Assembly (NCBI GenBank): GCA_015501075.1
Contig: JADNYJ010000031.1
Span: 186,001-250,000, forward strand
From: Gymnopilus junonius
Taxonomy: Eukaryota > Basidiomycota > Agaricomycetes > Agaricales > Galerinaceae
Direction: 5' to 3'
DNA: 64,000 bases
Each line of letters begins with the position of its first letter. Position 1 is the stretch's first letter. The notes under the pieces are model-generated. The model did no database searches and had not been told where the DNA came from. It saw nothing but the letters and a program-made list of their open reading frames with translations. Shown piece by piece: positions 33,336 through 51,660 of this stretch. The position numbers and the translations under genes are program-made.

Positions 33336-35105
33336 ATGCTGATTCAGCGCTTTAGCACGTCTGGCGTAGCCAGCGACAAAGATTGTCTCCATAGACTCGA
33401 CAACGACACTCTCCTCCAAATCTTTGACAAGCTCCGGCCCCAGGGTTACCTCCGTTCTCTGTCTGTCACATGTAAATGGGTCCGGACGTCATGCGCGCCA
33501 ACACTTTTCAGCGAGTGTTCTGTTAAGTCGAAGGAACTTTCATCTGGGAGGTCTCACTTCCTTCCGGAATCGTTGTGGTACTATGTTCGGTGTGTTTTTA
33601 AGCTTGATTTTAACTGATTTCCGGCACTAATGGCATTCCACACCTCAGCACCCTGAGACTTAACGAGTATTTTCTCCGATTGAATGCAAGTCGAGACTGG
33701 GTGACCGGTCTGTGGGGGTTTCCTCCTGCTGAGTCCCGCGAGGATATAAAGATGGAAAAGGAGGCCTTAGCACTTGAATCACGCGCAGGCTCATTCCTAG
33801 AAGAGGCTCTAAAGCATTTGCCATCCTTGCACACCGTTATTGTCGATAACGAGAGTATGATGGCGACGACCGGTCCAGACAAGGCGGGAATTCCGTTACC
33901 TGTCATTCTAGCTATTCTCTCGGTTCCACAGGTCCAGTGTTTTAAGGTCTCTGGCTATTTGTACCACCCCGTGGACCCTTCTCCCGCACGTCGGCGCCTC
34001 GCTCTCTCCAACCTCACGTCTTTCATATATGACATCCCAATCTTTCGTATGCAGCCGCGCACCTTCTCGTCAGAGGGTGCCCTGCTCAACCTCATCATCC
34101 CTGCGCTCCGGCTTTCCCTGGAGAAGTTAGTGCTCCCAGTAGAGAACGCTCCGCTGCAGAAGATGTATATGGAGGAATGGCCTAGTCTGCGCGTCCTCAC
34201 TCTCTATGGCCAACGTCGAACGGTCGTGAAGCCATGTATCCCATATATCACCATCCTCGCCCGCATGCCCAAACTTCAATCTCTCAACCTTTTCTTTGCC
34301 AATCCATGGAATATCGATCCGCAGGCCATCTGGCCGCAGGGCTTCTCTATGAGTTTCCCTTGGCCAGAGCTTCAACAATTGACCGTCACCCAACCACATG
34401 CGGGTGACGTGCTTTGGGCACACCTCCCTGAGAGTTTGCGGACACTTTCACTCCGTTGTTGGCCACGTCATTGGGAACAGGAAGCTTTAAGACGCCCATA
34501 CCGATACCTCTCCCCGCTGCATCAGGCAGAAGTTCATTGGCATACACCGCTTCTATCTTCGTCCGATATGCTCCACATCCTACAACAATGTCAGACACCC
34601 TTTCTTGACCACCTTGATATTGAGTATCAGATTGATAATCAGGAGGCTGCGCTTTTGCAGCATATCAGCTCTGTATTCCCTTTGCTCAAGGTATTAAAAA
34701 TAAGTCGGTATCAACACCCGGCCATAATGATGCTCCCTCTAGTAGGTTCATTCTATCACTTGCACTTGAATGTTACTCATAATGAAATTTCAGACAGATA
34801 TTGTAAATGCATTGGTGCCCCTCAAGGCCATTTGCACACTATATTTGTATGCTGATGAACTGCCTTCTTATTTCTGTGTGGGGAAGCAAGAGGTGGCATC
34901 TTGCAATGATCTTCTTGTTCAAGATCTCACAAGAAACATGAGTAAGACACTTGAGGTCATCTATGTTTCCTTTGGCCATCATCTACAAAGAGATTGGAGG
35001 GAATTCAAGATCATCCGAGCTCTTTGTAATAATACCAAGTCTGACATAATGTTCACTGTAGAACATTGTGCTGATTCTGTTCTTGGACTTTTATCTGTGC
35101 TATGA
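33336..35105 (+). CDS. F-box/leucine-rich-repeat protein, copy 1
   Basis: Probable SCF ubiquitin-ligase adaptor of a lineage-expanded family. Exons are 33336..33589, 33649..34741 and 34794..35105, giving 552 aa. The introns are 59 nt (GTGTGT..CAG, phase 2) and 52 nt (GTAGGT..CAG, phase 0). The F-box (about 14-55) reads DCLHRLDNDTLLQIFDKLRP then LSVTCKWVRTSCAPTLF. Leucine-rich repeats follow, with WPSLRVLTLYGQ, MPKLQSLNLFF and ESLRTLSLRCWP. The start is uncertain. In the second copy the aligned start is ATG (MPDIVSTKDC), but here that codon is ACG, so translation must begin upstream or across a 5' intron. Part of exon 2 (about 34110-34290) is nearly identical to the second copy. Confidence 0.75.
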
Positions 35106-40053: not shown

Positions 40054-41807
40054 ATGCCTGACATAGTTAGCACCAAAGACTGTCTCCGTAGACTGGACGA
40101 CGACATTCTCCTCCAGATCTTTGACAAACTCCGGCCCCAGGGTCACCTCCGTTCTCTATCTACTATATGTAAATGGATCCGGTCGTTATGCGCGTCAATA
40201 CTTTTCAGCGAGTGTTCTGTTAAGTCAAATGAACTTTCCTCTGGGAGGTCGCACTTCCTCCCAGAATCGTTGTGGTGCCATGTCCGGTGTGTTTTTAAGC
40301 TTAGTTTTTCTGATTTCCAGCACTGAGAGCATTATGCACATCAGTATTTTGAGGCTGAGTGGCTATTTTCTTCGACAGAAAGCGATTCTCAGTTGGGGAA
40401 GGGGTGAGTGGGTTTTTCCTTACCCAGATACCATTGAGGTCATCGAGGAGGAGAAGGAGGCGCAAGCCCGTGAATTGCGCGCGGGCACATTCCTGGAAGA
40501 GGTTCTTAAATGTTTACCATCCTTGAACACTGTCATAATCGATAATCTGAGTAATGCGGCGACGGAAGGACCAGATAAGGCGGGGGTCCCGTTGCCTGTC
40601 ATTCTAGCTATACTCTCGACTCCCCAGGTCCAGCATTTCTCGGTCTCTGGCTACTTGTACCATCCTGTGGATCCCTCTCCTGCTCCTCCAACAAATCTCG
40701 ATCTCGCCAACCTCACTTCTTTCATATATTATATTCCAATCCTTCGTATGCAACCTCGCACCTTCCATCAGAGGGTGCACTACTCAACTTCATCATCCCC
40801 GCCCTCCGGCTTTCCCTGGAGAAGTTAGTGCTCCCAGTAGAGAACGCTCCGCTGCAGAATATGTATATGGAGGAATGGCCTAGTCTGCGCGTCCTCACTC
40901 TCTATGGCCAACGTCGAACGGTCGTGAAGCCATGTATCCCATATATCACCATCCTCGCCCGCATGCCCAAACTTCAATCTCTCAAGCTTTTTTTTGCCAA
41001 TCCATGGAATATCGATCCGCAAGCCATTTGGCCGGAAGGTTTCCATATGAGTTTCCCTTGGCCAGAGCTTGAACAGTTGACTGTTACCCAGCCACATGCA
41101 GACGACAGGCTTTGGGCACACCTACCAGAGAGCTTGAGGGTTCTTTCGCTTCGTTGCTGGCCTCGTCGTTGGGAACATCAAATCTTAAAACGCCAACGTG
41201 ATGCTCTCTCTCCATTGTACCATGCCAGGATTCGTTGGCATACGCCACTCCTGTCATCATCTGATATGCTTCAGATATTACGACAGTGCCAGACTCCCTT
41301 TCTCGAACACCTTGATATTGAGTATCAGATCGATAATCAGGAGGTTGAGCTTATGCAGTATATTAGTTCTGCATTCCCCGTGCTCAAGAAACTAGAAATA
41401 AGCCGGTATAAAAATGAGGCGGCAAGAACACCTCCGCTGGTGAGTCCTTGCAATGCTCATGAATACGCGATACTCATGATAAGGTCTAGACAGATATTGC
41501 TCTTGCCTTGGCGCCTCTCAAAGCTATCCGTGTGTTGTGTTTGTACTTCGATGAACAATCTTCTTTGCGTGAGGTGAAACCAGAGATATTTCGGAATGAC
41601 TTGGATGTTGCTGCCTACGATCTCGCAAGCAACATGGGGAAGACCCTTGAAGTTATTCACCTCTCCCTTGGGTATTACCCACATATGGGTTGGAGCAAAT
41701 TTTCAGTTGTTTGGGCCTCTCATGAAGATGCAAGCTTTGATGAAATTGCTTTACAACATCATGTTGGTAAACCTACTCTTATCCTTGATGTTTCTTCTGT
41801 GTTGTAA
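40054..41807 (+). CDS. F-box/leucine-rich-repeat protein, copy 2, one-base frame break
   Basis: Paralogue of the gene at 33336-35105. Exons are 40054..40286, 40345..41439 and 41490..41807, with splice sites at the same places as copy 1. It starts MPDIVSTKDCLRRLDDD with an F-box, followed by the same leucine-rich repeats (FPWPELEQLTV, ESLRVLSLRCWP), and ends LILDVSSVL. One base is missing at the CC run 40765-40766: accttccatcagag should read as ttc-c-ca-tca-gag to match TFSSEGALLN of copy 1. Everything else is intact, so this is either a very young pseudogene or an assembly error. A 180-base stretch after the break is virtually identical to copy 1. Confidence 0.75.
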
Positions 41808-46130: not shown

Positions 46131-46247
46131 ATTACTGTTGCATTTCGTTCAATTCACCGGTCACGGGTCACAGGCCCTCCAAAATCGGCGAAATGTCACA
46201 GTTGTCCGCGGTCACAAGGCTGAGTGGCGAAACCATTTGATGTGGTG

Positions 46248-46420
46248 CAGGCTCCTAAAACCAGCCTCTAGTATCGCTCGCAAGAGCTTCATCTGAGAGC
46301 AGGACACATGTGTTTCATCAGAGAGCAAACACGGTCAAATATTTTGATGTACAAACAAAGCTAAGGGCTCAAGCTCGCGATATAGAGGCTGGCATTTTAT
46401 AGATTCACGTGATCTGCGTG
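46248..46420 (+). repeat. left terminal inverted repeat of the MITE
   Basis: Inverted partner of 46845-47018. Identity is highest at both ends of the repeat (first 40 and last 60 bases) and lower in the middle, where a few bases are inserted. Confidence 0.85.
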
Positions 46421-46844
46421 AGCAATGTCAAGGCTGTTTTTACAGTGTGACGCGCAGGCGCGTCACCAGAACCATGCCCAATTTGGAACTGCTGAATTTC
46501 CCCCCTTACAATTAGGAGGTAAACCCCTTTCGTCGTGTCGATTTAGCCATGCCACTTGTTCAAACAGTTAAAAATAAATACAATTGGCACAATTAGCAAT
46601 TATGCCACTTGAATAAGTGAGAAACATGCAAAGGTAACCTTCCCATGGTGTTATTGTAATGAGTGCAAGTGAATGGGTTCACCTAATTGTCCACAAAAAT
46701 ATGGCTCTCCTGCTCATTCACACTAGAATTATGGTAACCAGTAATGGTAGACACATTATTAAAGAAAACTTACACCTAATTTGCATAAATATGGGGGAAG
46801 GAACTTAATAAGTACTTGAAAGAATTATTAAGACAGTTGCCCAC

Positions 46845-47018
46845 ACAGATCACGTGAATCTATAAAATGCCAGCCTCTATATCGCGAGCTTGAGCTCTTA
46901 AGTTTGTTTGTACATTTGTTTGTATGTCAAAATATTTGTATTTCTCTGATGCAACACTGCATCCCGCTCTCAGGTGAAGCTCTTGCGAGCGATACTAGAG
47001 GCTGGTTTTAGGAGCCTG
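46845..47018 (-). repeat. right terminal inverted repeat of the MITE
   Basis: Inverted partner of 46248-46420. Contains gatcacgtgaatctataaaa in inverted register with the left copy. Confidence 0.85.
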
Positions 47019-47983
47019 GATGTGGTGGTGCACACTGCACAATCCTCGGTAACCACCCGGCCCAGTCACATGCCATGTCACCACGTGACACCACCAATTT
47101 CTTGAGACATCGCGTTTGCGCCTTCCGCACCACTGATTCGAAAAATTTAAAGTGTGGTATTTAGAAATGTGATGTAAATGCATGCATTGACAGTATTTTA
47201 AGTAAATGAAATTTAATACTGGGCTAATAAATGCGAAATCAGTCATAATTGCCTGCCAAATATGAGCCTCTAGAATGATTAGACTGCAGCTCATCAACCA
47301 CAACAGTTGGGAACATGGTTGGTAGATGTATTTTGCTTTAAATTTAATTCTGAATCGATCTACATGACCTTTTTTTTTTAATTTTTGTCCTTCATCCCAA
47401 GATAGACCCCAAAAATACGTACTTTAACATGGTTAGAGGGCATTAATTAGAATTCTAATGGTGTAGATTAAAGGAGAAATAAAAACTGACTATTTCGTTC
47501 CTGCAAAGCTAGTCTCAATTAGCTCTCGTTATAGAGTTGCAGCATTCGCAAGTCAGAGCCTGCAAAATAGGCGCTGCACAGCCACTGATCTTAATCCGAA
47601 TTAGGATGCGCGGCTCATGGTAGGTGCATGGCGTGTGCATTGTGGCCTTGCATGGCGGAAATACTGCAGAAAAGGTGTTTCCTTGTTGTTGGAGTGCCTT
47701 TTAGACCTCTACCACCATCACAACCAGCATATTCTCAGAAATACACCCTATCTCACCGCTTTTTTCATCTTTTTAGATTAAAAAGCATAGCCAATAGCAC
47801 TGTAAGTCATGAACTGTCTCTAGATCACCCTTTTAAATTCAAGAAAGTCATAGATACTCTCTGACTTAGCTGTAAAACTACTTTCTAGCAGCAATATCAA
47901 CCAAATCAAAGGTATTAATTTAATAAGCTACACTATATAATCTATTTACTTACCATATTTGGGCAGAATTTTCTATCACTATC

Positions 47984-50976
47984 ATGCCCAAATCAGCAAA
48001 GCTGAAACAGCTGGCTGCTGCTGCTGCAAAAGGCCGAGAAACTATGGCTGAAGCAAAGGCTGTATTGGATTCTGGGATGGAAATGGATACTCTCATAAAT
48101 AAACTCCAAATGGCAAACTTGCACATTGAAGAGCTGGAGCAGCTGCTCGCTGAGAAAGACAAAGAATGTCGCAAACTGCAGCTTAATCTGGAGAAAGCCA
48201 ATGAGAAGCTGCAAATATCCAAAGGCAATTCTGCCAATTGGAAACAAAAGCACAAGGACACATATCATGAGCTCTGCATGCAGCGTCAAACGACAAAACG
48301 AGGGCAAAATAAAGTAGCTCAATTGGTGGAACGGGTTGAAATTCTCAAGAAGGCTGAAGAGGAAGCTGCTTGCCAGTATCTTACAGGATCACGGCAGTCA
48401 GCTCAGGCTCTTGAAATGCTCAAGAAGGAAAATGAGGGCCTTCAAAGTGACCTCTCTAAATCTATGACCCGATGGACATCACAGCTCGAGAAAATGCAGT
48501 CTAAACTTATGGCTTCCAATGAAGACCTCAAGGCCTTGCGTCAAAATGCATCTAAATTGCGCAAGAATGTTGCACACTCTAAAGAAGCAAAAGAACATGC
48601 CATTGCAACCATGAAGGCAAAGATTGTACAACAACGATCTGTTCACCATTTGATGAGCAAGGGCATTTTTACAGAAGAAACTCGCAATGTTGTTGGTTTG
48701 CTCGTTAAAGCTGGCTGCTCACGAAATTACATCAGTGAGGTTATTTCCACAGTTCTGAAGTCTGCTGGAATTACCACTGTTGGTACCATCAGTCATCCAT
48801 CCATTATGCGCATTCTTCATGAGGGATACTTTGCTGCACAGATTCAGCTTGGATATGAGATGAAGAATGCAGAGAGCATGACCTTCAGTGCTGATGGAAC
48901 AAGCCATCGGAGTGTCAACTACAATGCTCACCATGTCCATTATCTTGCCGAGGATTATGCATCACCAGAAAGCAATGCCAAACAATGGGTCACCCGAACT
49001 TTTGGAATCCAATCCTCACGGGATGGTACTAGTGAGGAGGCTATTGCAGACTGGGAAAAAGCTCTCAAGAAAATTATCCAGGTCTACAATGAGAGTCCAT
49101 TTGGAAAGCGCTCTGGCAGTCTGGTCAAATATGTTGATCTTTTGATCAAACTTACTGGAATGAATACAGATCACTGTGTGAAGGAAAAAAAGGATGCCAG
49201 AATGCTTGAAGAACTAAAGGCTTGGGCTGTTGATCAGAATCTTGGAGAAGAAAAAATGTTAGAGATGTCGATGGAGGAAGTTTCGGCATATTTCAAGAAA
49301 GCAGAGGAGAAAATGATCAAAAAGGCTGGTGGTCAGAATAAATGGAACAACCTATCTGATGTCAAGAAGGCTGAAAGGAAGGCAGCTATGATTGAAGAGG
49401 CAATAGCTGAGCTAGGAAAGGAAGCATTTGAAGAGCTCTCTATGGAAGAAAAGCAGATTTTATGGCTTTTCATCTGGGCAGGCTGTGGTTGTCACAAGGA
49501 TCTAAACACAGTTCGAGGAGGATATCTAGCAATGGCACAATGGTGGGATGAGAATGAGAGTGAAGAAATACAGTGTCCTGTCCTTCTTGCAAACCGCGAT
49601 AATGATCCAGTCATGCAGGAGTGAGAGGCTTTCATTGTGCAAGGCGATACTCCGACACCAGCTCAAGAATGTGCATTCCACAAGTCTACTCGTGGTGCTA
49701 TCAAAACTGCAGAAATTGCTGGTGCAATCTTTAATCACAAGAATGATAAATTAGGCCATCATGATCTCTTTTGTTTTTGGTGGTGGGAACATATCGGAAC
49801 TCCTTTCACATTCCCTGATACATCCAACAACCAGTTTCAGTCCTACTGTGATGCAGCAGCAGCACTTGTTCTCCACTCCGACAATTTCAAGGACTTCCTT
49901 GAAAGTCTCCATGTCAATAAGAAGATTTTGACACTAAATCACATGGAAACAAATCTCAAAAAAGCACTTGATTGTTCTTCAACAACAACTGAGCTTGCTG
50001 TTCTTGCAATCTATGCAGAGGCTGTTTCATATCCATATATGAAAACCATTCATGCTTCTCAGGACAAGCAGCAGAACATGCTTGACTTGGGCCCACTTCA
50101 TTCCCGTGTCTATAAGCATATGCAGAAGATCATTGAGAATCCTGATATCCTGATCAGCAAGGATGCAGATTATAAATCAGCCACCCTTGATGGTGAGGAA
50201 TGGCAGAATGCAGATGTTGTAAAGAAGATACAGGATCTTATTCCAACACTTCCCCACTTTCGCGATCTTTTGATTGCTTTCTTCAAAGGAGCAGCAGAGA
50301 CATGGGAACGGTTCACATCTGAATTTGCTCCAGGTGGTCTAATTGATGAAGCAACAGTAGAGGAGAAAGAGCTTGCATGGATGCCTGCAACAAATGATGA
50401 AAATGAAGGAGCCCTAGGCTCTTTTCGACATCTTATGCGATATCAACCCAGCTTACACTCCTCAGTTACAATGCATTGTCAATGTTCTTCCGCAACAACA
50501 CACAAGCATTCATGGCTGCAAAGTTTACCAAGGAGGAGGACTATCGCTATCTACATACACTTGCTCGCAATGCCAATGGGGAAGAGAGAAAGCAGTGCAA
50601 GGAGCTTGTTGAATTCTGTGACAAACGACAAGCAGAGAAAACTGCACGCAAGAATGCCCAGGAGCAGAAAGCTAGAGAGACTGCAGAGCGAATGGCTGGA
50701 TTGGAAATTATTCTTGACAAAGAGAAGGTTACAGGTCTTAAAGGTCAAAGTCTGAAGGATCAGTTGAAGCTTTTCAAGAGTGCTGGAGCACCAAATTTAC
50801 AGCAAGGACCTCTACCAACGTTGGTTGGTGACATCCGTAAAGCACTGGCAGATGCAGTTGATTTGAGTATTCAGGGTACCTGGAAGCCTTGGAATGATGA
50901 GGGGAGTGAGGATGAGGATACAGAGGTCCCAGAAGATGAAGAGGATGATGAAGAGTGTTGGGAGGATATGATTTGA
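47984..50976 (+). pseudogene. transposase-like gene of the 5.5-kb element, disabled
   Basis: One long coding region of about 998 codons. The N-terminal 220 residues form a heptad-rich coiled coil (LEQLLAEKDKECRKLQLNLE and similar), perhaps for multimer formation. The rest has blocks I recall from a repetitive agaricomycete family: TFSADGTSHRSVNYNAHHV, GMNTDHCVKEKKDARMLE, WLFIWAGCGCHKDLNTVRGG, PVLLANRD, TRGAIKTAEIAGAIFNHKND, FPDTSNN, FTSEFAPGGLIDEAT and WMPATNDENEGALGSFR. The first Asp (FSADGT), the TDHC and the NDENEGALGSFR segments are candidates for a DDE-type core, which is inference. It ends in an acidic tail. Two lesions break it: an in-frame TGA at 49622-49624, probably a former CGA, and one lost base near 50455. 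I cannot place it in a named superfamily. Confidence 0.75.
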
Positions 50977-51239
50977 TAGTAGACTGCATAAGATTTTGCT
51001 ACAGAAGCACAATTTCCATTTATATTTGACATTTTATGTGTTATAACATAGTGTAAATAAACTATACAGGCTATAGTATTTTTATTCTGCAAAAAAAATG
51101 GAGGGAAACCGTCAAGAAATAAAGGAAATGCGTTGTATCAAGAAAAGTGAGGCGAGTGGCTGTGTGACATCATGTGACTGGGCTGTGACGTTGCCGAGGA
51201 TTGTGCAACACCATTTGATGGCCATAAATTTGGTCATTT

Positions 51240-51540
51240 TTGCGCTTAAAATCGCAAAAATCACCCCAGAACTGGTGAACTGCCACTCTGGCATTCTTAA
51301 ATTACTAGAAATAAAAGTTGTGAGACTGTAATTAGTTAAACTAAGTATTTTGTGGCTTAGAGGTCAATGTCCGAGTCTTCATAACTGGGTTTGATATCAT
51401 GCTACCAAAATCGGACAGATGATTGCTACGTAAGTAGTCGAAAAAGAACACATCAGGTGAGAATCAAACCCACTGCCTAGAGCAGTCATTGAACTACTTT
51501 GACACATACTACCAGTCCACCACGACAACTCTGTAAGACC
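51240..51540 (-). mobile_element. tRNA-derived SINE in the right end of the transposon
   Basis: The reverse strand of 51535-51455 reads like a tRNA head. It has a box A-like TGGACTGGTAGTATG and a box B-like GTGGGTTTGATTCTCAC that folds as a T-arm. No proper anticodon arm or acceptor stem closes, so it is not a working tRNA. A non-tRNA body follows downstream on that strand. The far end near 51240 is approximate. Confidence 0.55.
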
Positions 51541-51660
51541 AGTGAAATTTTAGGTAGGTCACAGGTCCCAAGCCCACCTGGTGAACCTGGCATTTCACCG
51601 GGCAGGTCACAGGTCACAGGGGGTGGTGAATTGAATGAAATGCAACAGTAGTTTGGTGCA

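Follow-up and report, generated by a model that had tools for sequence, protein, structure and literature searches.

A DNA transposon family of Agaricomycetes with a coiled-coil N-terminus and a predicted Hermes-like transposase

Introduction

The transposases of the hAT, P, MuDR, Kolobok and Dada superfamilies have a C/DxxH motif in common (PMC3706591, PMC10045372; papers are cited throughout for the portions of their text at hand). hAT elements such as Hermes generate target site duplications (TSDs) of 8 bp, with 5, 6 or 7 bp in named subgroups including hAT7 (PMC12730594), and their ends are reported to have subterminal repeats (PMC4763223). In the P superfamily (P element, Galileo and THAP9) the order is D, D, C/DxxH, helical insertion and E; the insertion of the P element comprises residues 339–528 (PMC8230255), and two papers mention a 7-bp TSD for Galileo. 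Dada elements occur in fungi including Laccaria, insert into small RNA genes with TSDs of 6–7 bp, and have zinc fingers at both ends of the protein, CCCC at the N-terminus and CCHC at the C-terminus (PMC3706591). KDZ (Kyakuja-Dileera-Zisupton) and Plavaka are likewise DNA transposons of basidiomycetes. The TSD is 8 bp long in Zisupton, 2–5 bp in the CMCT group, which includes Plavaka and has mostly CA..TG ends, and 6 bp in IS3EU of rusts, which has TAYGG..CCRTA ends (PMC12730594). In Repbase, a superfamily is set apart by non-convergence in an iterative search (PMC4455052).

Here we describe a transposon in a 64,000-nucleotide stretch of the Gymnopilus junonius genome (the window; contig C235:186001–250000, in a genome of 58.0 Mb), where an earlier note, made from the letters alone, had placed a transposase of unassigned superfamily. 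The element is probably a disabled copy of an autonomous DNA transposon of the cut-and-paste type. The DDE (Asp, Asp, Glu) transposase of such a transposon would have ~990 residues, a place in the C/DxxH group and a domain order like that of Hermes, and the element is best treated as a separate lineage at superfamily level. Its 7-bp TSDs and TGGTG..CACCA ends differ from those of Zisupton, the CMCT group and IS3EU. Its helical insertion is longer than that of the P element and far longer than that of the IS256-type ISCth4, which moves by a bacterial copy-out mechanism (PMC7780238). The distance from the second Asp to the Glu is 415 residues in the family protein P0002, compared with 176 in Dada-U6_DR (PMC3706591) and 228 in the P element (PMC8230255).

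Results

Termini and target sites of the transposon

The transposon has termini that read TGGTGGTGCACAATCCTCGG and TGGTGTTGCACAATCCTCGG inwards, and copies with the same termini are found elsewhere in the genome (named below by contig). The copy on C281 and the two on C296 match the window at 98% from 47036 to about 51215, with both ends in common; the copy on C13 has the 5′ end in common and ends near 50438. The terminal pattern, with at most two mismatches, has 26 matches in the genome and the reversed control has none. An exact 7-bp TSD was detected by script in six of the seven copies tested with both ends: TTTGATG in the window, TTAAAAG on C281, TATGCAG at the first C296 copy, CTTTAAG at the second and on C556, and TTTCCAG on C335. 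The second C296 copy and the C556 copy count as one insertion because their flanks are identical. Together with the C46 copy, whose TSD GTGCCAG was seen by eye in the same output, six independent insertions therefore have a 7-bp TSD, five of them by script. The final base of the TSD is G in all six and the penultimate base is A in five; apart from this 3′ AG/TG preference, the TSDs of the independent insertions have no common sequence. The copy on C281 spans 4,183 bp and has imperfect terminal inverted repeats (TIRs) of ~88 bp. Of its ten GTCAC sites, six are no more than ~65 bp from a terminus, in agreement with the subterminal repeats claimed in the earlier note. The alignment of genomic copies proposed there places the ends at 46243 and 51213 and gives the 7-bp TSD.

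The element lies inside one miniature inverted-repeat transposable element (MITE) and contains another. The features are as follows (+ or −, strand; otherwise unstranded).

46133–51650: host MITE (~540 bp when uninterrupted), entered by the window transposon
46236–46242: left TSD, TTTGATG
46243–51213, +: window transposon including the nested MITE, delimited by common termini and exact 7-bp TSD among copies
46248–47018: 771-bp palindromic MITE inside the 5′ TIR, with the 9-bp duplication GATGTGGTG at 46239–46247 and 47019–47027
47028–47081, +: remainder of the 5′ TIR, whose outer end TGGTG is at 46243–46247
47984–49624, +: transposase frame, part 1, from the coiled coil and the N-terminal helical domain through both Asp residues to CxxH, with TGA at its end
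48662–48871, +: N-terminal helical domain (residues ~227–296), within which the Hermes alignment begins
48893–48895, +: predicted catalytic Asp 1 (FSADGT)
49169–49171, +: predicted catalytic Asp 2 (NTDHC)
49484–49495, +: CxxH motif (CGCH), immediately after strand 5
49625–50449, +: frame part 2, bulk of the all-helical insertion and predicted catalytic Glu
50405–50407, +: predicted catalytic Glu (NDENEG)
50407–50976, +: C-terminal part, in the third frame (frameshift)
51164–51213, −: 3′ TIR, TGGTGTTGCACAATCCTCGG reading inwards
51214–51220: right TSD, TTTGATG

The TIRs that the earlier note saw around the frame exist, but the outermost pair belongs to the host MITE. These 26-nt inverted repeats (46133–46158 and 51625–51650) were rejected as transposon TIRs because the MITE occurs elsewhere uninterrupted: it has at least ~40 further genome matches, and all 11 examined are 519–546 bp long and run unbroken through TTTGATG. 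From the nesting, the host MITE was inserted before the transposon, and the 771-bp palindromic MITE entered the 5′ TIR last, with a 9-bp duplication. The host MITE pieces, with their 26-nt TIRs, lie at 46133–46242 and 51210–51650; TA at the ends may represent the target duplication of this MITE. The palindromic MITE has inverted arms of ~180 bp and 144 matching pieces in the genome.

A TIR-like 20-mer, TGGTGATGCATAATCCTCGG, was also observed within the coding region (48948–48967, − strand), oriented as a 3′ end. In five copies it departs from the 19 specified terminal bases at a single position, and in a sixth copy at two. With the 5′ TIR it could delimit a short pseudo-element, or it could be a coincidence of the coding sequence. 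On C296 (28–8603, L024), two nearly full-length copies are oriented oppositely ~0.2 kb apart, and the presence on C556 of both flanks of the second suggests a segmental duplication. Elsewhere in the window, two similar LRR/F-box-like frames recognised by eye (33614–34855 and 40067–41577) apparently arose when a host gene was duplicated locally.

The transposase and its family

The transposase frame runs from an ATG at 47984 to a final stop at 50974–50976, as the earlier note had it, and is interrupted by a TGA at 49622–49624 and a shift into the third frame near 50440. All four motifs named in that note (FSADGTSHR, GMNTDHCVKEK, FIWAGCGCHKDLN and NDENEGALGSFR) are present in the frame, and GCGCHKDLN contains the C/DxxH motif. 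In 34 family sequences, the only invariant Cys residues are at 398, 501 and 621, with a nearly invariant one at 503.

Residues 221–821 of the window protein (coiled coil excluded, stop as X) retrieved 421 homologues at E ≤ 1e-3. A paralogue from the same genome retrieved 121 (the best 120 of these were listed) and a more distant paralogue 27. Among the best 120 of the 421, many are uninterrupted proteins of ~990–1000 residues from other sources. The named hosts among the matches listed are Pholiota, Laccaria, Coprinopsis, Suillus, Serpula, Trametes, Artomyces, Athelia, Schizopora, Botryobasidium, Mycena and others, all of which we take to be Agaricomycetes. None of the listed relatives is annotated as a transposase; they are termed hypothetical, uncharacterized, unnamed or glutamic acid-rich. 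The coiled coil is absent from some of them, such as P0177 (792 residues), which may be truncated gene models. A relative on a viral contig (L021) was rejected, its match being confined to the coiled coil (30% over residues 137–213), and two matches on C56 (24%, E 5.6e-4, residues 174–305), partly within the coiled coil, were not counted.

The ratio of nonsynonymous to synonymous substitution rates (dN/dS) is 0.105–0.119 in all six comparisons of three near-identical copies with C170 or C46, a value that is only rough since dS between these subfamilies is 1.8–1.9, near saturation. With 421 homologues and dN/dS of ~0.11 between subfamilies, the family is not a product of chance. The ratio is 0.42 between C170 and C46, and 0.88, 1.10 and 3.33 among the three near-identical copies, so there is no sign of selective constraint after the last burst. 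Transitions account for 92 of the 102 variable columns among four near-identical copies, 47 of them in CpG context. This bias is consistent with methylation-driven decay.

Predicted structure and sequence searches

Structure prediction, which the earlier note had called for, yielded models with an RNase H fold in which the Asp of FSADGT, the Asp in the TDHC segment and the Glu of NENEG, from the candidates given there for the triad, occupy catalytic positions. The ~220-residue coiled coil is modeled mostly as a single helix (31–219 in P0002) preceding the catalytic part. The models support a hAT-like insertion of ~300 residues before the Glu-bearing helix, and in both of them Hermes leads the structural matches by a wide margin. 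Extra helices are predicted between Asp2 and strand 5 (~430–493 of P0002). The P element structure is not among the 50 structural matches listed, which carries no weight against the P superfamily.

Sequence searches gave a different picture from the fold. Against Pfam, 55 relatives picked for diversity from 239 listed homologues matched 45 families at E ≤ 0.5. The best matches were coiled-coil profiles under their own cut-offs, and the best 25 families included no transposase profile; each of the remaining 20 lies behind E 0.11 and was matched by one relative. The earlier note had named a strong profile match to a named superfamily, or the lack of an RNase H fold, as contrary evidence; no such match appeared in this sample, and the models do have the fold. 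The three pieces of the window frame matched no transposase profile in Pfam at E ≤ 1, and the window open reading frame matched no solved-structure sequence at E ≤ 1. The family profile, run against Protein Data Bank (PDB) sequences with hmmsearch at E ≤ 10, retrieved just two transthyretins and a plectin (E 0.42–5.2) and not Hermes. The claim of an unassigned superfamily stands for the sequence but not for the architecture, whose predicted fold is hAT-like (Hermes).

Discussion

The principal alternative is that the family represents a very diverged branch of hAT in which the coiled coil replaces the N-terminal BED finger, a possibility raised by so hAT-like a fold and size but one that we regard as unlikely. 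In its favor, the top structural match is Hermes, and the position of CxxH and the C-to-E spacing agree, as do the subterminal repeats and the similar TSD length. Some hAT members lack a BED finger as well. In contrast to hAT, neither the C-terminal domain PF05699 (Dimer_Tnp_hAT) nor BED was matched below E 0.11 in the 55 relatives, although the genome itself contains 95 matches to PF05699; the failure of the profile to retrieve Hermes argues in the same direction. The Glu context is NEGxLG rather than the ER.FS type of hAT, seen as GCERSFS in L065. The coiled-coil N-terminus of the window subfamily, its TGGTG ends, its 7-bp TSD and the extra helices are further differences from Hermes. The predicted fold is hAT-like, yet no hAT sequence feature tested is present.

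A second alternative, that Repbase already contains the family within a known superfamily (Dada, P or Zisupton/KDZ, for example), is improbable. Dada shares the DxxH motif, the TSD length and the fungal occurrence, and Galileo the TSD length. However, Dada has a far shorter D2-to-E distance, and in the 34 sequences Asp1 has no Cys before it that is invariant or nearly so, a pattern that does not fit the zinc fingers of Dada; the window target lies within a MITE rather than at a fixed small RNA gene site. THAP and P-type RNase H profiles are unmatched below E 0.11 in the 55 relatives, and BED, THAP and P-type profiles at E ≤ 5 in six proteins. KDZ (PF18758), with 79 matches in the same genome, is likewise unmatched below E 0.11 in the 55 relatives, as is Plavaka in the same scan. 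Judged by the features described in PMC12730594 and PMC3706591, each of KDZ, P, Plavaka, IS3EU and Dada differs from the family in one or more of those tested. That a host coiled-coil gene family without transposase function was merely trapped between unrelated repeats is hardly credible. The relatives do bear only non-committal annotations, but homologous copies have termini and TSDs in common, are dispersed at 98% identity, and encode a conserved DDE triad on a predicted RNase H fold.

Several points weigh against a separate lineage, or against the strength of the case for it. Foldseek TM-scores to Hermes are low (0.12–0.47 and 0.18–0.34), hAT7 elements give 7-bp TSDs as well (PMC12730594), the C170 copy, one of the seven tested by script, has no TSD, and the selection estimate suffers from the near-saturated dS. 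The hhalign probability of 0.1 against KDZ is a thin test, made with seven sequences from the same genome. The corresponding comparison with hAT was discarded because the control failed for three of five pairs (L065 against five gave 97.4, 100, 0.1, 0.1 and 0.3); the sample was poor, and one of the six fetched hAT stretches, L069, does not look like hAT. The family was set apart by Pfam, the PDB, the small KDZ sample and published descriptions, with the Repbase and Dfam libraries outside the comparison. No account of it was found among the literature titles and abstract openings listed, a scope that excludes Repbase Reports and subscription papers. Members could be among the 23 TIR families reported in Laccaria, for which the text at hand gives no superfamily names (PMC3411680).

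On balance, we lean towards the view that these cut-and-paste transposons, which are widespread in Agaricomycetes, form a eukaryotic superfamily not described before. It would be marked by a 7-bp TSD, TGGTG..CACCA ends, a coiled-coil N-terminus in place of the DNA-binding finger of hAT, and a catalytic and insertion domain of the Hermes type diverged past sequence recognition. In such an element, the coiled coil and the N-terminal helical domain may mediate oligomerization and binding of the ~88-bp imperfect TIRs with their GTCAC subterminal repeats. The RNase H core, with CxxH after strand 5 and the helical insertion preceding the Glu-bearing helix, would supply the DDE residues and the CxxH histidine for cleavage at TGGTG, probably with the flanking ends forming hairpins, as they do in hAT. 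The freed 3′ ends would then attack the target 7 bp apart, giving rise to the observed 7-bp duplications.

Hundreds of predicted proteins now unnamed or hypothetical would be transposases of a single family missed by Pfam, and this omission has probably distorted the transposable element content and gene counts given for Agaricomycetes. Should the family lie outside hAT, it would join hAT and P as a further eukaryotic lineage that combines a C/DxxH enzyme with a large helical insertion, and would help in asking what role the insertion has and how TSDs change in length between 7 and 8 bp.
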